Shown here: piece after piece, positions 5,766-48,406 of the stretch
How positions within the stretch are numbered: position 1 is the stretch's first letter
Layout: each line of letters opens with the position of its first letter
Assembly: GCF_000376785.1 (NCBI RefSeq)
Contig: NZ_AQXX01000133.1
Location: 62,001 to 126,000 of the forward strand
Reading direction: 5' to 3'
Origin: Hahella ganghwensis DSM 17046
GTDB lineage: Bacteria; Pseudomonadota; Gammaproteobacteria; Pseudomonadales; Oleiphilaceae
DNA length: 64,000 nucleotides
Notes under the pieces: generated by a model
Databases searched by the model: none
What the model was told of the DNA's origin: nothing
The model's input: only the letters and a program-made list of their open reading frames with translations
Program-made: the position numbers and the translations under genes

Positions 5766-6749
5766 ATGAGTGATGAAGAAGAAAAGAAATGTGATTGTCC
5801 GCCGAGGTTGCCTGCCTGGATGGCGACTTTTGCGGATCTCATGTCTCTGCTTATGTGCTTCTTCGTTTTGCTGTTGTCCTTTTCCGAAATGGACGTACTG
5901 AAGTTCAAGCGGCTGGCCGGTTCAATGCGTGAAGCCTTTGGTGTGCAGAATGTGATTAATGTGACCAGCATTCCCAAAGGAACCAGTGTGGTGGCACAGG
6001 AGTTCAGCCCTGGTAAGCCTGATCCAACCCCCATTCAGACCGTTATGCAGCAGACGACAATTGCAGACCTGCCTAACCTGGAACAGGTTTGTGAGCAGGA
6101 AGTGGAGAAGGCGCTAAAAGAAGAATGCCCCAAAGTTCAGGGGGAAGAACTCAGCGATATTGTTCTGGAAAAGATCAAAATGCTGGTCGAAGAGACTGAA
6201 AATGACGCTATCACCATGGCGTCAGCCCTAGAGCAGGAAGTTCGCAATAACCAGGTGGAAGTCGAGACCCGTGGCCGAAAGATTGTTATCCGGGTGCAGG
6301 AAAAAGGTTCTTTTGAATCCGGTTCGGCGGATCTGAACCCTGAGTTTTACCCGGTTATCGACAAGTTGGTCGAATTACTTTCTGAAATGGAAGGTTCAGT
6401 ATCGGTGGAAGGTCATTCAGACAGCATCCCCATTCGCACCGCGCGATTTCGGTCCAACTGGGACCTTTCTGCGCAAAGGGCTCTGGAGGTGGCGCATGCG
6501 TTATTCGATTCAGGAGAGCTGGATCAATCACGCTTTAATATTGGGGGGTATGCAGATACTCACCCGCTGGTACCGAATGACAGTCCTGAAAATCGGGCTA
6601 GGAATCGTCGTGTAGAGATTATTTTGCAACAACCATTGGATGAGCAGACGAAGGAGGAAATCAGGCAGGCGAGGGATGTTGCACCTGGTGTAATTCCGGA
6701 TAATGAACTGAACGACTGGGGTGGGTTGTCCCCCGATGAGATTTTCTAG
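5766..6749 (+). CDS. pomB: flagellar stator protein PomB (MotB family, Na+ type)
   Basis: PomB anchors the stator to peptidoglycan and carries the ion-binding Asp. Residues 1-16 are cytoplasmic and contain CDCPP. One membrane helix follows with TFADLMSLLMCFFVLLL, where D24 is the sodium-binding aspartate (same number as Vibrio PomB). After the plug and linker, an OmpA-like peptidoglycan-binding domain runs from about 190 to 290, with VEGHSDS and NRRVEI motifs. The length is 327 residues against 315 in Vibrio. The long acidic linker (about residues 95-150) is the main difference. The stop lies about 100 bases before the PilZ gene. Confidence 0.95.
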   Translation: MSDEEEKKCDCPPRLPAWMATFADLMSLLMCFFVLLLSFSEMDVLKFKRLAGSMREAFGVQNVINVTSIPKGTSVVAQEFSPGKPDPTPIQTVMQQTTIADLPNLEQVCEQEVEKALKEECPKVQGEELSDIVLEKIKMLVEETENDAITMASALEQEVRNNQVEVETRGRKIVIRVQEKGSFESGSADLNPEFYPVIDKLVELLSEMEGSVSVEGHSDSIPIRTARFRSNWDLSAQRALEVAHALFDSGELDQSRFNIGGYADTHPLVPNDSPENRARNRRVEIILQQPLDEQTKEEIRQARDVAPGVIPDNELNDWGGLSPDEIF

Positions 6750-6855
6750 CTGCAAGCCTGAAGTCGAATGAGATCGTCGCGTAAACGGCGACGCATAGAA
6801 GGCAAGAACTCTGTGCAGTGTTCTTGAAGATTGCAGTGCTCTGGGAGATTAAAGT

Positions 6856-7518
6856 ATGTCGCAACCACAACATGAGCGAAGACGTTATTTTCGGATTAAC
6901 GATACGCTTGATCTGAGCTTCCGTACCCTGCAGGTCGGGGAACTGGTGGAGTCAGGAACCTCTCTTCGCAGTCGATCTGCCCAATGGTTAAAACTGGAAA
7001 ACGACATTCATATTGCGCTGGATAAAGTACGTCAGCAATCAGCAGAAGTAGCTGACGTGCTCGCGTTGTTCAATCAAAAAATCAACTTACTGGAAAGCGA
7101 TATGGAAGCTGGATCCAGTGATGATTTTATCTATCAGCCCTCGGCATCCGTCAATATCAGTGCCTGCGGCATTGCCTTCCAGGTTCAGGAGCAGTTATTT
7201 GTGGGATCTTCGCTGCAGCTGCATTTACGTTTATACCCGACAATGGTTGAGCTGACGATAGGAGCGACCGTTATTGCTTGCGAGGCGCAGGATGTCGAGA
7301 ATAAGACGCAGGATGATGAGGCTCAGGAAACCACAGATGAGGCCCAGAACACCACTAGCGAAAAGAAAGGTCTGGATAGTGGGCAAGGTCTGTTCCTGGT
7401 CAGGGCGGACTTTACTCATTTGCAGGAAGAAGCCCAGGAGGTTTTGATTCAGCATGTCCTGAGATGTCAGACCAAAGAACTCAAACAGAGAAGGGAAGCC
7501 CGAAATCGCCAGTCATGA
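6856..7518 (+). CDS. PilZ-type c-di-GMP-binding protein
   Basis: The 220-residue protein starts with RRRYFR (an RxxxR motif) and later has NISACG (the N/DxSxxG motif), the two c-di-GMP contact motifs of PilZ domains. They are separated by about 120 residues, which include a likely coiled coil (about 45-80), so the PilZ elements are split across the chain. A low-complexity acidic stretch (about 146-175) precedes a final helical part. It lies directly after pomAB, a position that suggests a role in coupling c-di-GMP to motility, though that is inference. No catalytic domain is seen. Confidence 0.8.
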   Translation: MSQPQHERRRYFRINDTLDLSFRTLQVGELVESGTSLRSRSAQWLKLENDIHIALDKVRQQSAEVADVLALFNQKINLLESDMEAGSSDDFIYQPSASVNISACGIAFQVQEQLFVGSSLQLHLRLYPTMVELTIGATVIACEAQDVENKTQDDEAQETTDEAQNTTSEKKGLDSGQGLFLVRADFTHLQEEAQEVLIQHVLRCQTKELKQRREARNRQS

Positions 7519-7560
7519 CCTTGTATGGCCATGACTCACCAGCTTCATGTCTCATCATAA

Positions 7561-8355
7561 CTATGTCTCGTTTTTTCCATCTGGCAGGAGCTTGATGATT
7601 TCCTCTTTCTCCCCAATGACGCCCTCATGGTTAAAATTTCTTTCCAGTATTTTGATTCGACGTTCTTTGTTCCAGGTCAGAATGGTGCTCGCTCGAGTAC
7701 CATAAGTGGGAGAACGAATAAAGCGGGAAGACAGTAATCTTTCCAGATGTTGATCAATGCCTGTATCTGGTAATAGCTCGTCAGGAGCTTGCTCACCGTT
7801 GGCAAGTAATTCCCATAGTGAGTTCATATCTTTCGAGGCATCAAGGCTGTTTGCTTCAATGATGCTCCTGAATTGTTGCAGTCCCTGGCTGACTTTTGGC
7901 CACTCAGCATTCAGAAGGCCGTTGCTCAGACCGTAAAAACCTGGTGGCAGAACTCTATGGAAGTCAGGAGCCCGGTTGCTGCAGTAGATCAACGCCTCTC
8001 CATCGTAGCTTAGTGTGTTAAACCCGCCATAGTCTTGAGCTTTTTCTGACAGAGTCGCAGTTACAAAGTTCTTTTGGGAGGAGGTCAGTAGCAGATCCTT
8101 CACCAGATTGCCGCGTGACAGAGGCGCTGGTGTAGAGTGCCCCGATCGAAAGTTGGTAACGGCAGCAAAGCGCCCTTCACGGTGAACGCCCATCCAGGTC
8201 CCGCCTTCCTTAAGATCCCGGCCAGCGTATATGTCTGGCTGGTCGTCCCAGCGATGCAAAGACTGAGTCGGCCGTTCGTAAAACTCGTCACGATTTGCCG
8301 CCACAATCAGCGGATAATCCGGTTGCATGTTATAGGCAGCAAATATCAGGCACAT
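7561..8355 (-). CDS. NRDE/TANGO2 family protein
   Basis: The N-terminus MCLIFAAYNM followed by VAANRDEFYERPT holds the Asn-Arg-Asp-Glu motif that names the family, and GTWMGV with AAVTNFR matches the next conserved block. The Cys at position 2 would become N-terminal after Met removal, as in N-terminal nucleophile folds. The bacterial members have no settled function. Human TANGO2 is linked to lipid and heme handling. At 264 residues it has the usual length. It is transcribed divergently from the TauE-type gene across a 107-base gap. Confidence 0.88.
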   Translation of the reverse strand: MCLIFAAYNMQPDYPLIVAANRDEFYERPTQSLHRWDDQPDIYAGRDLKEGGTWMGVHREGRFAAVTNFRSGHSTPAPLSRGNLVKDLLLTSSQKNFVTATLSEKAQDYGGFNTLSYDGEALIYCSNRAPDFHRVLPPGFYGLSNGLLNAEWPKVSQGLQQFRSIIEANSLDASKDMNSLWELLANGEQAPDELLPDTGIDQHLERLLSSRFIRSPTYGTRASTILTWNKERRIKILERNFNHEGVIGEKEEIIKLLPDGKNET

Positions 8356-38694: not shown

Positions 38695-41400
38695 TTAACC
38701 GGCGTCTTCCAGTAAGGCTTGTAGTTCAGGAATGCATGAGCCACAGTTGGTGCCTGCGTTCAGGCATTGTCCTATCGCCTCAACTGATGATAGCTGTTTT
38801 TCCTCTATGGTCGTGCGTATGGTCTTTTCGCCTACGCCAAAGCAGGCGCAGACTGTCTTGCCGGTATTTGCGGCGCTGTTCATTGGAATCCCTGCCAGCA
38901 GACCGAGCCGATCCTGATCTGTCAGATGATCTGCTTCAAACAGGCTGGCCAGCCAGGATCTTTCCGGTAACTGATTGGTTGGAGAAATAAACAGGCAACT
39001 GGTCAGCTGTCCGTTGACGAATGCTGCTGAACGATATTTCCCGGCAGACGGGTCTGAATATTCCTGCCATTCCTCGTTCTCTATTCCACTCAAAAGTAAA
39101 TGCCGGCTCCAATTACCGATATCAGCGATGGGGGCATCCCCCGCCAGTTCATAACGGTAGAAATTACGTCCCACAACTTTCACCCAGTAAGCTATTCCTT
39201 CTACCGCCAGAGGTTGCCGGGAAAACACAAAACCATACCAGTTGGCTGCAAAGGGTTTGACGTTAACCGGAGTATGTTTGCTTTCCGGCTGGCCGGAGTA
39301 GGGGTCGGTAATGGGGTTAACCAAGGTTCCCATTCGCCCCGCACTGGATAGTTGCCCGGTCCAGTGCATGGGAACGAACACCTGCCCGGGTTGCAGGTTT
39401 TCTGTAATCTGTACCCTTGCCAACATCTCACCGTAACGGGACTGGACTTGAACCAGACTGTCCTGAGGGGCATGGATTCTGTCTGCATCGCTGGGGTGAA
39501 TCTCACAAAACGGTTCTGCGATATGTTGATTCAGTTGCGGAGCCAGACCGGTGCGAGTCATGGTGTGCCACTGATCACGGATTCTGCCGGTGTTAAGCAC
39601 CAGTGGATACTCTTCTGACAAGCTTGCCTGGGGGAGGGTAGGGGTAATCGGAAGTAATCTGGCTTTCCTGTTAGGGGTGAAGAATTGCCCATCTGCAAAC
39701 AGACGGGGAGTGCCTGTCGTTTCTGTCAATCCTTTGTCTGAATCTCCCGAGCCTGCCAGCGGCCACTGAAATGGCGCGAGTTGTTCGTATTGCTGCCGGG
39801 AGATACCCTTCAGTGCCGAGATATTGAAGTCACGAAGAGTGCCTTCCATTGAGTTTTCAAAGCCGGATAAAGCAGCATGCTCGGCAAAAATGTCGCGACT
39901 GGATTGATAGTTGAATTCCTGGCCGAATCCCATTCTTTTGGCGACTTCGCAAAGCGCCCACCAGTCTGGCTTGGCGTCCCCCATCGGTGGAAGCAGAGCT
40001 CTTTGTCTTGAGATTCGTCGCTCGGAGTTGGTAACGGTACCGTCTTTTTCTCCCCAACCCAGTGCTGGTAAAAGGATATTGGCGTATTCGGCGGTATCGG
40101 TCTGATGGATGCAATCGGACACAATGACTGTATCGCAGCGGGACAGTGCTTGTGCCACTCGGTTGGCGTTAGGCAGGCTGACCGCAGGATTGGTGCCCAT
40201 GATCCAGATGGCTTTGATTGTTCCATCTGCTACCGCTTCAAATAGCTCAACCGCCTTCAGGCCTGGCTGGCTGACCATATTCGGTGCGTGCCAGAAACGA
40301 CCGACTCTTGCGATATCTTCAGGAGCGAAATCCATATGTGCGGCCAACTGGTTGGCCAGGCCGCCGACTTCCCGACCACCCATGGCGTTCGGTTGCCCGG
40401 TTAGAGAAAAAGGCCCCATTCCTGGCTTTCCTATACGGCCGGTTGCCAGGTGACAGTTAATAATGGCGTTAACCTTATCGGAGCCACTACTCGATTGATT
40501 GATACCTTGAGAGTAGACAGATACCGATTTTTCCGTTCGCCGGAACCAGTCAAACAGAGTGGCAACTTCTGATTCTCTGATACCGCATTGCCGCGCAACC
40601 GTCACGATATCGCCGGCTGTTTCGTTGGCTGCCTTGATTGCTGCCCCAAAACCTTCAGTGTGATTTTCCAGAAACTCGTAGTTAATTGCCCCCAGGCGAC
40701 TGAGATAAGCCAACAGGCCATTAAACAGGAAAGCGTCACTACCGGGATTGATCGGTAAAAATAAATCGGCAATGTCACAGGTGGCGGTACGGCGTGGATC
40801 GATGACCACCACTTTCATTTCCGGACGCTGTTTTTTGGCTGCCTTAATACGCTGAAATATGATTGGATGGCACCAGGCAGTGTTTGAACCGGTGAGCAGA
40901 ATCAAGTCTGCCTGTTCCAGATCTTCATAGTTACCCGGCACCGTATCTGTGCCGAAGGCCCGTTTATGGCCAACAACGGAGGATGACATGCAAAGCCTGG
41001 AATTGGTGTCCACATTGGCTGAGCCGATAAACCCTTTCATCAGCTTGTTGGCAACGTAATAGTCTTCGGTCAGTAACTGTCCGGAAAGATAAAAGGCAAT
41101 AGCGTCAGGCCCATGTTGATCTATCACCTTTGCAAGACGGCTGGACACTTGATCCAGAGCGCTATTCCAGGATGTTTCCTGGCCGTCGACGATCGGATGA
41201 AGAAGCCTGTTTTCCGGCCCAAGAGTATCCGCCAATGCTGTCCCTTTAGAGCACAGTCGACCAAAATTGGCCGGATGGTCGGATTGGCCTTTGATTTCTA
41301 CCTGTCGAGTGTCGGTATCAATCACTTGGGCGGTGATACCACAACCTACTCCACAGTAAGCGCAGGTAGTATGAATGTTGGAGGCACATTGAGCTGACAT
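38695..41400 (-). CDS. nasA: assimilatory nitrate reductase catalytic subunit
   Basis: The 901-residue protein reduces nitrate to nitrite in the cytoplasm. It has an N-terminal 4Fe-4S motif C13-x2-C16-x3-C20 with C50, the Mo-bis-MGD domain (RLCMSSSVVGHK with its Cys likely the Mo ligand, GTNPAVSLPNANR), a molybdopterin dinucleotide domain near 600-700 (LNTGRIRDQWHTMTRTG), and a C-terminal BFD-type 2Fe-2S domain (CACFGVGEKTI, GTNCGSC). That last domain lets it accept electrons without a separate small subunit. nirD and nirB lie upstream on the same strand. Confidence 0.95.
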   Translation of the reverse strand: MSAQCASNIHTTCAYCGVGCGITAQVIDTDTRQVEIKGQSDHPANFGRLCSKGTALADTLGPENRLLHPIVDGQETSWNSALDQVSSRLAKVIDQHGPDAIAFYLSGQLLTEDYYVANKLMKGFIGSANVDTNSRLCMSSSVVGHKRAFGTDTVPGNYEDLEQADLILLTGSNTAWCHPIIFQRIKAAKKQRPEMKVVVIDPRRTATCDIADLFLPINPGSDAFLFNGLLAYLSRLGAINYEFLENHTEGFGAAIKAANETAGDIVTVARQCGIRESEVATLFDWFRRTEKSVSVYSQGINQSSSGSDKVNAIINCHLATGRIGKPGMGPFSLTGQPNAMGGREVGGLANQLAAHMDFAPEDIARVGRFWHAPNMVSQPGLKAVELFEAVADGTIKAIWIMGTNPAVSLPNANRVAQALSRCDTVIVSDCIHQTDTAEYANILLPALGWGEKDGTVTNSERRISRQRALLPPMGDAKPDWWALCEVAKRMGFGQEFNYQSSRDIFAEHAALSGFENSMEGTLRDFNISALKGISRQQYEQLAPFQWPLAGSGDSDKGLTETTGTPRLFADGQFFTPNRKARLLPITPTLPQASLSEEYPLVLNTGRIRDQWHTMTRTGLAPQLNQHIAEPFCEIHPSDADRIHAPQDSLVQVQSRYGEMLARVQITENLQPGQVFVPMHWTGQLSSAGRMGTLVNPITDPYSGQPESKHTPVNVKPFAANWYGFVFSRQPLAVEGIAYWVKVVGRNFYRYELAGDAPIADIGNWSRHLLLSGIENEEWQEYSDPSAGKYRSAAFVNGQLTSCLFISPTNQLPERSWLASLFEADHLTDQDRLGLLAGIPMNSAANTGKTVCACFGVGEKTIRTTIEEKQLSSVEAIGQCLNAGTNCGSCIPELQALLEDAG

Positions 41401-41559: not shown

Positions 41560-41895
41560 TTAGCCGGTCTGGCGTTCCTGCTCGAGCGACAGATAAATAC
41601 GATTATTTTCCAGTTTAGTCGGATAGGCAGGCGTACAACCACTATCGAATCCCTGCGCTTCTCCGTCGAGCAGACTGATCACCCAATTATGTAGAGGACA
41701 GGTAACCTGATTGCCATGAACAATTCCCTGGGAAAGAGCGCCGCCTTTGTGCGGGCACTTATCTCTCAGGGCGAAAACTTTATCTTCTTTGGTACGGAAT
41801 ATGGCGATATCGCCATGGACAGACCCGACAACTCTCGCGCCCAGTTTGGGGATATCTTCCAGAAGTCCAATATCAATCCACTGTGTCATAACCAA
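41560..41895 (-). CDS. nirD: nitrite reductase (NADH) small subunit
   Basis: NirD partners NirB in reducing nitrite to ammonia. The 111-residue protein has a Rieske-type fold with all four cluster ligands present (C47, H49, C66, H69 in CPHKGG and CPLHNW). In E. coli NirD the ligands are missing, so this one probably binds a 2Fe-2S cluster. It follows nirB after 180 bases and precedes nasA by 159 bases. Confidence 0.93.
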   Translation of the reverse strand: MVMTQWIDIGLLEDIPKLGARVVGSVHGDIAIFRTKEDKVFALRDKCPHKGGALSQGIVHGNQVTCPLHNWVISLLDGEAQGFDSGCTPAYPTKLENNRIYLSLEQERQTG

Positions 41896-42075: not shown

Positions 42076-44526
42076 TCAGTTAACCTGGGTCAGTGGAATA
42101 AACTCATGTTTCTCCACATTCTGACTGGCCCTCTCTGCCCAGGGATCGACCTGTGCGTACTTCTGGGATTCGAGGAATCGGGCATGAAAAGCCTTGCGCT
42201 GCTCCGGGTTTTCCACAATTTCTGATTTGATATAGCTCAGGCCAACACGTTCCACCCAGGGGGCCGTTCTCTCATTGTGTCGACCCTGTTCACGATACAT
42301 CTGCATAAAGGCGCCGGCGTATTCCATAACTTCCTCTTCTGTAGACACTTTGCACAGATAGTCGCAGGCTCTGACTTTGATGCCCCCGTTACCGGCAACA
42401 TACAGCTCCCAGCCCGAATCCACGGCTACGACACCAAAATCTTTGATAGTCGCCTCAGCACAATTTCTGGGGCAACCTGAAACAGCCATCTTGACCTTGG
42501 CCGGCGTCCAGGAACCCCACGTCATTTTTTCCAGCTTGATACCCATTCCCGTGGAGTCCTGGGTGCCGAAACGACAGAACTCAGAACCTACGCAGGTTTT
42601 GACTGTTCTCAATGCCTTGCCGTAGGCATGTCCGGAGACCATGCCGGCATCGTTCAAATCTTTCCAGATGTCTGGTAAGTCTTCTTTTTTGACGCCGAGT
42701 AGATCAATGCGTTGTCCTCCAGTGACTTTGACGCAAGGCACATGATATTTATCGGCAGCGTCAGCGATGGCTCGTAATTCATCCGGCGTTGTCACCCCAC
42801 CCCACATCCGTGGAATAACGCTGTAGGTGTTGTCCTTCTGGATATTGGCGTGAACCCTCTCGTTGATGAAGCGGGAGCGGGGATCATCGACTTTCTCCGT
42901 AGGCCATGCGCACACCAGGTAATAGTTGATTGCCGGTCGGCAGACATGACAGCCATCCGCGGAGTCCCATTCCAGGAAGGCTGATACCTCATGAAAGGAC
43001 TTTAGGCCGTTTTCGGTAATGGCATTGCGGACACTGTCGTGACTGTGCTTAGTACAGCCGCATATGGGTTTCTCACTGGGGCTGTCGCTATAGTTTCCAC
43101 CGACAGTGGCAGTCAGAATCTGTTCCACCAATCCTGTGCACGAGCCGCAGGAAGCAGAGGCTTTAGTGGCTGAGCGAACATCATCCAGAGTGAAAAGTTT
43201 ATTGTCTGTAATGGCTTTGACGATGTCCCCTTTACAGATTCCGTTACATCCGCAGACCTCCGCATCGTCCGGCATATCGACGATGGCATTCTGGCCCTGA
43301 TGTCCCGCATCGCCGACAAAATGTTGGCCAAATATCAGTGCATCACGGAAGTCGGCCACGCTGGTTTTTTCACGCATCAGATTGAAATACCAGGACCCTT
43401 CGACAGTGTCTCCGTAAAGAACGGAACCAATAATACGGTCGTCTTTCAGGACCAGCTTCTTGTAGATACCACGACTTGGATCCTGGAAGACAATCTGTTC
43501 GCTGTCGTTATCCCCCAGAAAGTTGCCGGCAGAAAACAGGTCGATACCCGTCACTTTCAGTTTGGTGGAAACTTCTTTCTGCTTGTAGATACCGATCCCG
43601 TAGCCAGCCAGGTGATTGGAGCAGACCTTGGCCTGATCCCAAATCGGGGCGACCAGTCCGAATAACTCTCCCCGGTGTTGGACACACTCCCCAACGGCGT
43701 AGATACATGGATCGTAGGTCTGCATGGTGTCGTTAACGACAATGCCTCTTTCACAATACAGACCGATGGATTGAGCCAGTTCCGTATTGGGACGAATACC
43801 GGCTGCCATAACGACGATATCAGCCGGCAAGGTTTCGCCTGTATCAAACTTGATACTTTTCACCTGGCCATGTTCATCGCCCTCGAAGCAGGAGGTATTG
43901 GCCGACATACGGAATTTCATTCCCCGTTGTTCCAGGGCTTTCTGTAGATAAGTGGCGGAGGTGGTGTCCAACTGCCGGTTCATCAGAACGTCAAGGTTGT
44001 GCACGACGGTCACATCCATGCCTTGCTTAAGCAGTCCATTGGCTGCCTCAAGGCCAAGCAGACCGCCTCCGATCACGATGGCATGCTGTTTACACTTAGC
44101 AGCACTCAGCATGGTGTCGACGTCTGAAATATCCCGGAAGGCGATGACACCTTTAAGGTCTTTGCCTGGTACCGGAATAATGAAAGGAGATGAACCGGTG
44201 GCCAGCAGAAGGCGATCATATTCAGCTTCCGTTCCGTCTGCGGCGTAAACCACTTTATTGCGGCGGTCTACTTTGGTGACCCGCTTTTCATATCCGGCAT
44301 GTAGTGTAATGTTATTCGTGGCGTACCACTCGAGATCATTGATCATGATGTCATTAAGTGTTTTTTCCCCGGACAGGAGAGGAGACAGCATGATCCGGTT
44401 ATAGTTACCGTGAGGTTCTGCTCCAAATACCGTAATTTCGTATTTGTCGGATGCTATCTTCAACAGCTCTTCGACAGTTCTCATTCCTGCCATGCCATTT
44501 CCGATAACCACCAGCTTCTGTTTCAT
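42076..44526 (-). CDS. nirB: nitrite reductase (NADH) large subunit
   Basis: NirB carries FAD, a 2Fe-2S, a 4Fe-4S and siroheme, and reduces nitrite to ammonia. The order of domains is: NAD(P)/FAD Rossmann region (VVIGNGMAGMRTVEELL, residues 4-20; DIVVMAAGIRPNT), BFD-like cysteine motifs (CGCNGICKGDIV, CGSCTGLVEQIL, and a second CGCTKHSHD and CHVCRPAINYY), a ferredoxin-like half domain, then siroheme cysteines in GSEFCRFGTQ and SGCPRNCAEA. The ATG at 44526 is chosen for its GGAGAAG site. The frame is open upstream to 44583. The length is 816 residues. Confidence 0.95.
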   Translation of the reverse strand: MKQKLVVIGNGMAGMRTVEELLKIASDKYEITVFGAEPHGNYNRIMLSPLLSGEKTLNDIMINDLEWYATNNITLHAGYEKRVTKVDRRNKVVYAADGTEAEYDRLLLATGSSPFIIPVPGKDLKGVIAFRDISDVDTMLSAAKCKQHAIVIGGGLLGLEAANGLLKQGMDVTVVHNLDVLMNRQLDTTSATYLQKALEQRGMKFRMSANTSCFEGDEHGQVKSIKFDTGETLPADIVVMAAGIRPNTELAQSIGLYCERGIVVNDTMQTYDPCIYAVGECVQHRGELFGLVAPIWDQAKVCSNHLAGYGIGIYKQKEVSTKLKVTGIDLFSAGNFLGDNDSEQIVFQDPSRGIYKKLVLKDDRIIGSVLYGDTVEGSWYFNLMREKTSVADFRDALIFGQHFVGDAGHQGQNAIVDMPDDAEVCGCNGICKGDIVKAITDNKLFTLDDVRSATKASASCGSCTGLVEQILTATVGGNYSDSPSEKPICGCTKHSHDSVRNAITENGLKSFHEVSAFLEWDSADGCHVCRPAINYYLVCAWPTEKVDDPRSRFINERVHANIQKDNTYSVIPRMWGGVTTPDELRAIADAADKYHVPCVKVTGGQRIDLLGVKKEDLPDIWKDLNDAGMVSGHAYGKALRTVKTCVGSEFCRFGTQDSTGMGIKLEKMTWGSWTPAKVKMAVSGCPRNCAEATIKDFGVVAVDSGWELYVAGNGGIKVRACDYLCKVSTEEEVMEYAGAFMQMYREQGRHNERTAPWVERVGLSYIKSEIVENPEQRKAFHARFLESQKYAQVDPWAERASQNVEKHEFIPLTQVN

Positions 44527-44547
44527 GATCTTCTCCACATTTAAATA

Positions 44548-44567
44548 GCAGGATGAGCGTTTCCTGC
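44548..44567 (-). repeat. leader hairpin before nirB
   Basis: GCAGGA at 44548-44553 pairs with TCCTGC at 44562-44567 around an 8-base loop, within the transcript leader just before the nirB ribosome site. It could be a target for post-initiation control of the kind seen in nas operons (NasR or NasT antitermination), but the required pair of loops is not clear. Confidence 0.4.
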
Positions 44568-44612
44568 AATTGGGGTTCTGCAATCCGCGTATTCTGAACT
44601 TGCTTAGTGCTA

Positions 44613-44628
44613 AGCAGGATAAGTGCCA
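44613..44628 (-). promoter_or_regulatory. sigma-54-like promoter of nirB
   Basis: On the minus strand the sequence TGGCACTTATCCTGCT matches TGGCACGnnnnTTGCW at 10 of 12 fixed positions, with GG and GC ten bases apart. The predicted start is near 44603, giving a 77-base leader before the nirB ATG. Confidence 0.65.
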
Positions 44629-44814
44629 TGTTGCTTTGTTATTCTAATAACCTATTGATATCTAAAAACAAAAAACTTGTCGTGACACAAGCTGGTGCAG
44701 CTTCCCTCGAATAAATTCAAGTGAGAATGTCTGTTTTTGAACTATTTGAGTGCGACAACTTGTCTGCTTGCACCAAAAACAAGATCAAAATGGTGCGTAT
44801 TGAGAATTTCAGTG

Positions 44815-44831
44815 TGCACATAGTTGGTGCG
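44815..44831. promoter_or_regulatory. NtrC-type binding site
   Basis: TGCACATAGTTGGTGCG contains the GCAC-N7-GTGC core of NtrC sites. It lies about 140-125 bases upstream of the predicted narK start and about 210-230 upstream of the nirB start, distances usual for NtrC enhancers. Confidence 0.7.
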
Positions 44832-44927
44832 TTACTTTGAGTTTGTCCGGAAATTTATTTTCAACTTATTGAAAGAAAAGAAGATGTTGGTCAGATGTTG
44901 GTAAGACGAATGCTTCGTGTCAGGCAT

Positions 44928-44943
44928 TGGCATGTCTTTTGTA
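44928..44943 (+). promoter_or_regulatory. sigma-54-like promoter of narK
   Basis: TGGCATGTCTTTTGTA fits the sigma-54 pattern except that the -12 element is TTGT, not TTGC. GG is correctly placed relative to GT. The start would be near 44955, 27 bases before the ATG. The imperfect -12 lowers confidence. Confidence 0.5.
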
Positions 44944-44981
44944 GATAGAGACTGCATAACTAGTGAGCAGAGAGGCTTTCA

Positions 44982-46454
44982 ATGTCGTCAGAAAAACTAA
45001 ATGTTCTGGATTTCAGTCAGGCCAGGATTCGTACTCTACATTTCACCTGGTTCGCGTTCTTTCTAACCTTCGTGATGTGGTTTTCTCATGCCCCGATGAA
45101 GCCTTTCATCATGGAGGCATTCAATATGACCAACGAGCAGTGGAAAGCACTGTTGATACTGAATGTTGCTCTGACTATTCCCGCCAGGATAGTGATAGGC
45201 ATGTTGGTCGACAAGTTTGGTCCAAGGTCGGTGTACAGCCTTTTATTATTGACCTCGGCTTTCCTATGTTGGGGCTTTGCCTTTGCTTCCAGTTATGAGC
45301 AACTTGCGCTGTTCAGGTTCTTGTGCGGATTTATCGGTGCTGGGTTTGTTATTGGCATACGGATGGTGGGGGAATGGTTTCCTGCCAAGACGGTTGGGGT
45401 GGCAGAAGGTATCTATGGCGGATGGGGGAATTTTGGTTCTTCTGCGGCAGCCTGGACGCTGCCTGCCGTGGCGGCATATCTGTATGGTGGAGATGATGGA
45501 TGGCGTTATGCGATCGCAACCACCGGTGTCGTTGCGTTTTTTTACGGCCTGATTTTTTATCGTAAGGTTCGTAATACCCCTAAGGGGTCTACCTATTTTA
45601 AACCCAAGAAAAGCGGTGGCCTGGAAGTCAGTTCATGGAAGGATTTCTGGTTCTATGTCGCGATGAATCTTCCTATGTACCTCGCTCTGGCAGTATTGAC
45701 CTGGAAACTCTCTCCATCAGGTGTCGGATTGCTGTCTGCGACAACGGCCTTGTTGCTATGGATAGGGTTGGTTCTGCTGTTCTTCGTGCAGCTCAGTCAG
45801 ATCTACAAAGTGAATAAAGACCATTTGAAAGATGGTGTCCCTGACATGCAGCGTTATAAGTTCAAGCAGGTCGCTATTCTGGACTGGGCGTACTTCGTTA
45901 CCTTTGGTTCTGAGCTTGCGGTGGTCTCCATGCTGCCTGCTTTTTTCATGGAAACCTTTGATCTGACACCGATCAAGGCAGGACTGTTGGGTGGTGCATT
46001 TGCCCTGATGAATCTGGTCGCACGTCCTGGTGGTGGTTTAATCTCCGACCGGTTTGGCCGTCGTAAAACCCTTTCAATTCTGATCTGTGGGTTGGCAATC
46101 GGCTATATGTTGCTAAGCCAGATTGACAGTGCCTGGGCCATTCCGGTGGCTGTTTTGTCTGTAATGGTCTGCTCCTTCTTCGTACAGGCTGGAGAAGGTG
46201 CTGTTTTCGCCATGGTTCCACTTATCCAGCGTCGTATGACTGGCCAGATTGCGGGAATGGCTGGCGCATATGGCAATGTGGGCGCGGTGACATTTCTTAC
46301 GGTCTATTCCTTTGTGGATGCGGCGACTTTTTTCATGACCATCGCGGGTGCTGCCGCCGTATGTTTCATTGCGGTTCAGTTTCTGGAAGAGCCTCAGGGA
46401 CATATGGTGGAAGTGGATGAAGACGGCAGTGTGCAACTGATAGAAGTCACCTGA
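44982..46454 (+). CDS. narK: NarK-type nitrate/nitrite MFS transporter
   Basis: The 490-residue protein has 12 membrane segments and the nitrate-transporter signatures [19 protein letters not shown] and GWGNFG, plus a later GAYGNVGAV. It would import nitrate for the NasA/NirBD enzymes encoded on the other strand. It lies across the divergent region and next to the phosphatase-kinase gene, the same neighbourhood as the PA1779-PA1783 nitrate genes of P. aeruginosa. Confidence 0.93.
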
Positions 46455-46672: not shown

Positions 46673-48406
46673 ATGGTTCTGGGTAATGTATTAACACTGT
46701 CTGTAGACCAGTATTCTTCCCAGGGGGTGAAGTCCCGTAATGAGGATTGTATTGGTATTCGGATACCAGATACGGAAGTGCTGAACTTTAAGGGGGCCGT
46801 CGCGCTCATTGCCGATGGTGTCAGTGCTGCGGAAAACGGTAAGGAAGCGGCAGAAACCTGCGTCATTAACTTTCTTAACGATTATTACTCTACGCCTGAT
46901 TCATGGTCGGTCAAGCAGTCTGCCCAGAAAGTTCTGCTGGCATTGAACCGATGGCTGTATGGACAGAGCCTGAGAGCCCTGAACGAAAGTCGGGGTTATG
47001 TCTGTACTCTCTCAATTCTGGTGCTCAAGTCCACCAAGGCCCATCTTTTCCATGTAGGAGATAGTCGTATTTATCTCATGCGTGGTGGCGTACTGGATCA
47101 ATTGACAACCGATCACACTCAGAGAATCAACGCGGAACAAAGCTATCTGGCCCAGGCAATGGGATTTTCAGCGCATCTTGAGATAGATTATCGGTGTATT
47201 GATCTACAGGAAGGAGATGTTTTTTTTCTGTCCACTGACGGCGTTCACGATTTTCTGACAAAACCGGAACTCAGTCAGGCGCTTGGCGAATTGCCAACGC
47301 GTTTTGAGGGATTGACCCGATGGATGGTTAACGAAGCGCTGAAAAACGGCAGTGACGATAACCTCAGTTGTCAGATTGTGAGGGTGGATAGCCTTGGGCT
47401 TCAAACGGCCAGGGATTACTGTCATGAATTGGGGTTGCTTCCCTTTCCTCCGCCACTGAGTGTGGGGCAGAGGCTTGATGGATATGAAGTAAAACGGATT
47501 ATCCATGAAAGCCACCGGAGCCAGGCGTATTTGGTCGAGGATGTGGAAACCGGGCAGCAATCGGTCATGAAAACCCCGTCAGTGAACTTTGAGGATGACC
47601 CCGCATTTATTGAAAGGTTTCGGCATGAGGAATGGATTGCCGCGCGTGTGCACAATCCCCATGTGGTGAAGCTGGTCGTACCTGCCAGAAGTCGCTCTGC
47701 GCTGTATTATCTGACCGAACATATTCAGGGAGTGCCGATGTCCCGCTGGATTCGGGATAACACTCGGCCGGATATCAATCGGGTGATACAGATTGTTGAG
47801 CAGATCGTGAAGGGCGTTAGGGCTTTTCACCGTAAGGAAACACTGCATCAGGACATCAAACCTGACAATATTCTGATTACCAATGACGATAGGGTCACCC
47901 TGATTGATTTTGGTTCCTGCTGGATCTCCGGTATTCAGGAAATTAACGCGCCGCTGGAACGGGAGCATGCGTTAGGTACTGCCTGTTACAGTGCTCCTGA
48001 ATATGCGCTTGGTGGTAAGGGATCGGTGTTATCGGAGCAATTTTCTGTCGCCGTTGTGGTGTATGAAATGCTGACTGGTGAGCTTCCCTATGGTGAAGGT
48101 TATGAAAAAGCAGCATCCCCGGCCGCTTTCGCCAGACTGACCTATACACCGGCCTATCACTACAATCCTCTGATCCCCGTATGGATGGACGGAGCGCTTA
48201 AAAAAGCGCTTCAACTGGACCCCAGGCGTCGGTACGAGAGCTTCTCAGAGTGGCTGCATGATATGAAGCACCCCAATGCCCGGCTCATGCCTGATCATGC
48301 ATTACCTTTGATAGAGAGAAATCCACTGCGGTTCTGGAAGATATCGGCGGGGGTATTGTTCGCCACACAGTTGATGATGCTGTGGTGGATATTCTCCAGA
48401 GGCTAG
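46673..48406 (+). CDS. bifunctional PP2C phosphatase / Ser-Thr protein kinase
   Basis: The 577-residue protein fuses an N-terminal PP2C phosphatase (about 1-240; metal motifs SRNEDC, IADGVS, STDGVHDF and SDDN) to a protein kinase (about 265-535; VMK lysine, HQDIKPDN catalytic loop, IDFG, YSAPEYALGG) and a final membrane helix (about 553-573). The kinase glycine-rich loop (HESHRSQAYLVED) lacks the GxGxxG pattern. It is the fourth part of the nas neighbourhood in Pseudomonas as well, so it probably adjusts nitrate uptake or reduction, though its target is unknown. Confidence 0.9.
   Translation: MVLGNVLTLSVDQYSSQGVKSRNEDCIGIRIPDTEVLNFKGAVALIADGVSAAENGKEAAETCVINFLNDYYSTPDSWSVKQSAQKVLLALNRWLYGQSLRALNESRGYVCTLSILVLKSTKAHLFHVGDSRIYLMRGGVLDQLTTDHTQRINAEQSYLAQAMGFSAHLEIDYRCIDLQEGDVFFLSTDGVHDFLTKPELSQALGELPTRFEGLTRWMVNEALKNGSDDNLSCQIVRVDSLGLQTARDYCHELGLLPFPPPLSVGQRLDGYEVKRIIHESHRSQAYLVEDVETGQQSVMKTPSVNFEDDPAFIERFRHEEWIAARVHNPHVVKLVVPARSRSALYYLTEHIQGVPMSRWIRDNTRPDINRVIQIVEQIVKGVRAFHRKETLHQDIKPDNILITNDDRVTLIDFGSCWISGIQEINAPLEREHALGTACYSAPEYALGGKGSVLSEQFSVAVVVYEMLTGELPYGEGYEKAASPAAFARLTYTPAYHYNPLIPVWMDGALKKALQLDPRRRYESFSEWLHDMKHPNARLMPDHALPLIERNPLRFWKISAGVLFATQLMMLWWIFSRG

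Follow-up and report, generated by a model that had tools for sequence, protein, structure and literature searches.

A Putative Two-Way NtrC/Sigma-54 Control Region between the Divergent nirB and narK Genes of Hahella ganghwensis

Introduction

Several proteobacterial systems link nitrate assimilation to general nitrogen control. In Pseudomonas stutzeri, an ntrC mutant is reported to be unable to use nitrate and nasT is described as NtrC-regulated (PMC8443478), and in alpha- and betaproteobacteria narK and nitrite reductases are placed within the NtrC regulon (PMC5343134). In Pseudomonadota, NAD(P)H-nitrite reductase genes are reported to show sigma-54 enrichment (PMC12316311), and NtrC is described as acting together with NasTS in Paracoccus (PMC5424462). 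Divergent sigma-54 operons served by a single enhancer-binding protein, DVU2106, are represented by orp1 and orp2 of Desulfovibrio vulgaris, in which IHF sites lie between the activator sites and the promoters; IHF dependence was shown in an E. coli host, and deletion of DVU0396, one ihf-alpha gene, had no effect in D. vulgaris (PMC3897727). No description of the divergent nirB/narK region considered below was found among the listed titles and abstract openings of open-licence papers.

The nirB/narK Locus

The region lies within a 64-kb stretch of the 6.56-Mb, 144-contig genome of Hahella ganghwensis DSM 17046 (hereafter the window), in which nirB and narK are transcribed divergently from either side of a 455-base gap. 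The genes concerned are as follows.

42076..44526, minus strand: nirB, assimilatory nitrite reductase large subunit, 816 aa (TIGR02374, 928.8 bits, cut-off 578.35)
44982..46454, plus strand: narK, nitrate/nitrite MFS transporter, 490 aa (TIGR00886, 325.2 bits, cut-off 311.7)
41560-41895: nirD-sized frame, likened by size, downstream of nirB
38695..41400, minus strand: molybdopterin oxidoreductase, downstream of nirB (best models TIGR01591, 485.8 bits, and NF047855 NasC, 437.3 bits, both below the curated cut-offs)
46673..48406, plus strand: PP2C-type phosphatase/Ser-Thr kinase fusion, 577 aa, downstream of narK (kinase and phosphatase model matches below cut-offs)

Genomic context suggests that the molybdopterin oxidoreductase is the assimilatory nitrate reductase and that it probably belongs to the nirB operon; the phosphatase/kinase fusion would likewise share an operon with narK. 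C-terminal residues ∼830-900 of the nitrate reductase-like protein match NifU and NirB models, a stretch that we take to be perhaps a BFD-like [2Fe-2S] domain. A 577-aa frame (6561-8294) is also found 3′ of narK at locus L056, and gave no match at the very strict E-value of 1e-80, the sole test applied. NarK-type genes form another divergent pair at G000:C115:23809-26819 (L136), where no sigma-54 element was detected just upstream of the plus-strand narK-type gene. The regulators that the proposed control would need are encoded in the source genome, as ntrC was recovered by profile search at 759.6 bits, above the model cut-off, and one copy of rpoN was found.

Opposed Sigma-54-Like Elements

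Candidate promoters and enhancer sites were scored with weights set by hand from consensus sequences. An element resembling a sigma-54 promoter faces each gene, and from its position a transcription start can be predicted on either side.

44613..44629, minus strand: sigma-54-like -24/-12 element facing nirB, ATGGCACTTATCCTGCT, GG-N10-GC
44602, minus strand: predicted nirB transcription start, 12 bases past the -12 box, giving a ∼76-nt leader
44927..44943, plus strand: sigma-54-like -24/-12 element facing narK, TTGGCATGTCTTTTGTA, GG-N10-GT
44954, plus strand: predicted narK transcription start, giving a ∼28-nt leader

The core of the nirB-facing element, TGGCACTTATCCTGC, occupies 44628-44614 of the minus strand and has one mismatch to a TGGCAC-N5-TTGC-type pattern; its GG and GC dinucleotides are ten bases apart, as the initial annotation had it, so that the sequence conforms to what is expected of a sigma-54 promoter, and this GG-N10-GC is kept in all eight shuffle-tested gaps from Hahella and its sister genus. 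The narK-facing core, TGGCATGTCTTTTGT, spans 44928-44942 of the plus strand. Here too the annotation was right about the presence of an element, the -12 box of which reads GT rather than GC. In the window and its relatives the narK element departs from GG-N10-GC, the remaining scored positions fitting, and its position and conservation suggest a variant of the sigma-54 consensus. Within the 455-base gap, the best nirB-facing and the best narK-facing scores were each reached by a fraction of 0.004 of 500 dinucleotide shuffles. The starts proposed earlier, 44603 and 44955, each differ by one base from those predicted here. Neither predicted leader shows structure beyond that of shuffled sequences (z 0.66 for nirB, 1.13 for narK). 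Another narK-facing GG-N10-GC candidate, TTGGTAAGACGAATGCT, located 84 bases before narK, was dropped as it has no counterpart among the elements listed for the closest relative of the window, Hahella sp. CCB-MM4 (L003).

The GT variant is confined to a lineage. Among 50 narK loci positive for a sigma-54 element, the -12 dinucleotide is GC in 41 and GT in nine, and all nine GT elements have A as the next base and belong to Hahella and the sister genus g7. In each of the eight shuffle-tested Hahella and g7 gaps, the window included, the narK-facing element carries TTTTGTA at -12, and the nirB-facing elements of two distant loci, L039 and L047, also read TTGTA. Tandem narK genes beside nirB occur at G024:C1:163458-166611, the first having GC and the second GT in its -12 box. 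An exact search with the pattern TGGCAYNNNNTTTGTA, chosen after the site was known, gave a single match in the 6.56-Mb genome, at narK. Across seven Hahella genomes it gave eight matches, six of them at narK (in all six genomes with the gene pair) and the other two at different positions in G004. None was found in the remaining genome, G003, in which the best narK match is only 69% identical. Since the reversed control gave seven matches, the weight of this result comes from position and not from number. The corresponding GC pattern had six matches genus-wide versus 16 for its control, and short exact patterns thus fail to single out sigma-54 promoters on a genome-wide scale.

NtrC-Type Sites between the Putative Promoters

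Between the two elements is a set of sequences resembling the NtrC consensus, TGCAC-N7-GTGCA.

44815..44831: main NtrC-type palindrome, TGCACATAGTTGGTGCG, one mismatch to TGCAC-N7-GTGCA
44694..44699, plus strand: outer NtrC-type half-site, GGTGCA
44738..44754: degenerate NtrC-like site, TGAACTATTTGAGTGCG, whose GTGCG half is 43 bases ahead of the next half-site
44769..44796: half-sites TGCACC (44769-44774) and GGTGC (44792-44796), 17 bases between them

The GCAC-N7-GTGC core of the palindrome, GCACATAGTTGGTGC, lies at 44816-44830, exactly where it was first placed. Its centre is 131 bases from the predicted narK start and 221 bases from the predicted nirB start, in agreement with the earlier estimates of about 130 and 220, and both its sequence and its location conform to what would be expected of an NtrC enhancer (TGCAC-N7-GTGCA-like, ∼100-200 bases upstream of a start). 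Within the gap, the palindrome score was equalled in a fraction of 0.002 of 500 dinucleotide shuffles; the counterpart in Hahella sp. CCB-MM4, TGCACCTAAATGGTGCA, is a perfect NtrC site, and in all eight shuffle-tested Hahella and sister-genus gaps the palindrome has a shuffle frequency of at most 0.04.

Same-strand GTGC half-sites are spaced 43 and 34 bases apart in all six Hahella gaps, with an additional 34-base step in four, suggestive of NtrC sites arrayed in series, each with a single good half. The TGCACC/GGTGC pair noticed earlier is present, with the reported 17 bases between its halves, but the special cooperative arrangement then suggested for it is not supported: among 105 narK loci (450 bases upstream of each), that exact gap occurs in the window and L003 only, and it was rejected as a recurring element. 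The pair reads best as the halves of two neighbouring sites.

Half-sites also show positional enrichment in the wider set of 105 non-duplicate narK loci, which divides into 50 with a narK sigma-54 element scoring at least 0.87 and 55 without one; the second narK of G024 (L017) is among the former, and the first, adjoining nirB, is outside the set. In the 50 positive loci, half-sites are concentrated at -225 to -101 relative to the predicted narK start; the other 55 show no such concentration. Densities, which pool related loci so that counts are not independent, peak in the positive loci at 34 per kb between -150 and -126, are 12-30 per kb in the remaining bins from -225 to -76, and fall to 6-13 at -300 to -226 and 3-6 at -400 to -301, compared with 1.5-4.9 per kb in the other 55 loci, measured from the start codon.

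Elsewhere in the source genome, in the glnA region (L130), the NtrC-like sequences TGCACCAATATTGTGCG and TGCACCAAATTGGTGGC precede a GG-N10-GC element, TTGGCAGATAAATTGCT, and a palindrome is present upstream of ntrB, where no sigma-54 element above threshold was found. A genome-wide search for the NtrC pattern with one mismatch gave a mild excess, 31 matches versus 18 for the reversed control; the window palindrome has two mismatches to that pattern and hence is not among the 31.

Candidate IHF Sites

Sequences matching the IHF consensus, WATCAANNNNTTR, exactly or approximately are found between the putative enhancer and each promoter.

44648..44660, minus strand: IHF-like site, TATCAATAGGTTA, exact consensus match, between enhancer and nirB promoter
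44859..44874: overlapping pair of IHF-like sites, each with one mismatch, weak, between enhancer and narK promoter

The eight gaps contain three exact sites where 0.445 would be expected (a count attained in 2 of 200 shuffles) and 13 sites with one mismatch where 8.15 would be expected (attained in 17 of 200), so that a role for IHF is at most suggested.

Recurrence of the Two-Way Layout

Taken singly, the motifs are close to chance in the window. GCAC-N7-GTGC occurs twice (0.98 expected; 23 of 100 shuffles reach two), the sigma-54 pattern with one mismatch ten times (12.2 expected), and the wide half-site pair with one mismatch twice (1.8 expected); no single motif is significant alone across the 64 kb, and the case is therefore carried by comparison, conservation being stronger evidence than motif counts.

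The same divergent pair was found at seven further loci, five in Hahella and two in g7, and each of the eight gaps, counting the window, contains a narK-facing element, a GG-N10-GC nirB-facing element and an NtrC-like palindrome. More widely, narK relatives were surveyed in the best 80 of 524 matches, among which a narK-facing element scoring at least 0.85 lies within 250 bases at 37 loci, and one facing away at a single locus. Five duplicates (L032, L033, L035, L040, and L044) are counted in these 80 and were removed from the 105-locus set. Eight of the best 80 loci have a nirB-like gene diverging at less than 800 bases, and all eight carry elements both ways; not counted here are L053, whose nirB-like gene lies at a distance of 2750 bases, and L032, which duplicates L003. 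Opposed sigma-54 elements are consequently present in 17 of the 17 divergent nirB-like/narK gaps scored (six from Hahella, three from the sister genus, and eight more distant). Sixteen of these were tested by shuffling, with a frequency of at most 0.03 for every element, and at most 0.004 for both elements in the eight distant gaps; the seventeenth, the narK1/nirB gap of G024, has GG-N10-GC both ways and was read without shuffles. L025, with a 438-base gap to a nirB-like gene and a narK 55% identical, has elements listed in both directions although it was left out of gap scoring.

The nirB-like partners at the eight distant loci are distant from the NirB of the window. Five align along nearly the whole of NirB at 35-37% identity, two correspond to its front half (416 aa, 57-58% identity), and one is a 646-aa relative with 33% identity over 489 residues, those of L064 and L056 having also been checked by family models; thus, the layout is found repeatedly with divergent partners of nirB-like type. 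At L056:3388-4638, as in the divergent gene of L066, the coding sequence covers no more than the NirB front half. The comparison with related genomes proposed in the initial annotation, through these 17 gaps and the enrichment of half-sites at the expected upstream distance, lends support to its central claim of an NtrC-type site between opposed sigma-54 promoters.

Proposed Mechanism and Alternative Explanations

On this sequence evidence, the 455-base gap is very probably a two-way NtrC/sigma-54 control region in which, when nitrogen is limiting, a single array of NtrC enhancer sites activates both promoters. NtrC in its phosphorylated form would bind the palindrome at 44815-44831 and the neighbouring half-sites (44750, 44792) and assemble into an active oligomer, and DNA looping to both sides, perhaps helped by IHF, would allow it to contact sigma-54 RNA polymerase poised at the nirB promoter (predicted start ∼44602) and the narK promoter (predicted start ∼44954). 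With docking sites in the centre and a promoter facing each way, nitrogen scarcity should turn on the two genes jointly, so that nitrate uptake and nitrite/nitrate reduction would be induced in concert. That NtrC is the binding protein and that one enhancer serves both directions is what we infer from the arrangement of the sites.

The identity of the activator bears on this model, as the array could be bound by a different, for example nitrate-specific, sigma-54 activator. Above 140 bits, the NtrC model has 20 additional matches in the genome, which are presumably other sigma-54 activators, and the best palindrome does not exceed chance in six of the eight more distant divergent gaps (shuffle frequency 0.07-0.56). 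In addition, a six-frame domain search, which a diverged protein could escape, gave no match to the ANTAR domain of NasT-type proteins (PF03861) in any of seven Hahella genomes, nor in the four g7 genomes searched (G012, G024, G029, and G034), against 28 of 58 searched genomes with one, so that in Hahella a nitrate signal, if any, would enter some other way. A search for the NIT nitrate-sensing domain also gave no match, but control genomes were equally without one and the result is uninformative. Against another activator, the palindrome and half-sites resemble both the NtrC consensus and the glnA sites of the same genome, and the Hahella sp. CCB-MM4 site is perfect; we consider this alternative unlikely. 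NasT/NasS attenuation was rejected for Hahella, given the lack of an ANTAR match and the leaders unstructured beyond shuffles. A link between the divergent layout and ANTAR absence holds in Hahella and the sister genus but not as a rule: of the eight distant genomes with this layout, three have an ANTAR protein that exceeds the cut-off and one more has a match short of it.

It is less likely still that nirB alone is controlled by sigma-54, the GG-N10-GT sequence being no working promoter and narK being transcribed otherwise, or the conserved stretch being something else such as a terminator hairpin. The replacement of C by T at -12, seen in nine of 50 positive narK loci, those of Hahella and one sister genus, would fit such a reading, as would a terminator-like hairpin with a T tail on the plus strand at 44916-44934 that overlaps the narK element in the window (one found, 0.3 expected). 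This is opposed by the element itself, which is in place in all six Hahella genomes with the gene pair and is kept while the surrounding sequence diverges, by the GC found in 41 of 50 elements at other narK loci, and by the failure to find any sigma-70-like site in 44480-45020, on which ground sigma-70 control was set aside. Chance matching of the motifs, consistent with none being significant by itself across the window, was rejected in view of conservation, position and strand asymmetry, including the positional enrichment of half-sites, and its probability appears negligible.

Building on the two-way NtrC/sigma-54 model, a more elaborate version can be entertained tentatively, though it is probably not correct in full: the half-site array, with its fixed same-strand spacing (43 and 34 bp, and a further 34 in four genomes), may be a true bidirectional enhancer, the conserved TTGTA -12 box may set a different strength or basal level, and in this lineage without NasT nitrogen status alone may regulate the genes.

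Comparison with Known Systems

The region would provide a compact natural case for asking if a pair of sigma-54 promoters in opposite orientation can be served by a single bacterial enhancer, natural counterparts being available for comparison in several other lineages. It also offers a conserved natural -12 variant, GT for GC, the effect of which on sigma-54 promoter behaviour is measurable. Hahella may, moreover, dispense with the usual antiterminator, NasT, in nitrate assimilation.

As a candidate recognized from sequence, it would be a well-supported further case of a known type of control. As in the nas genes of P. stutzeri outlined in PMC8443478 and the proteobacterial NtrC regulons summarized in PMC5343134, nitrite reductase and nitrate transporter genes are preceded by NtrC-type sites, pointing to general nitrogen control; unlike the P. 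stutzeri system as outlined there, nirB and narK of Hahella diverge around one central array of sites, and no ANTAR protein was found in the Hahella genomes searched. With orp1/orp2, as presented in PMC3897727, the region would share two divergent sigma-54 transcription units activated by one enhancer-binding protein, but the activator and the genes differ, and in Hahella an involvement of IHF, at sites between activator sites and promoters, is suggested by sequence only. The closest parallel within the same genome is the glnA upstream region, in which NtrC-like palindromes similarly precede a GG-N10-GC element; in the stretch scanned there, however, one sigma-54 element was found, facing glnA, in place of the opposed pair that flanks the nirB/narK array.
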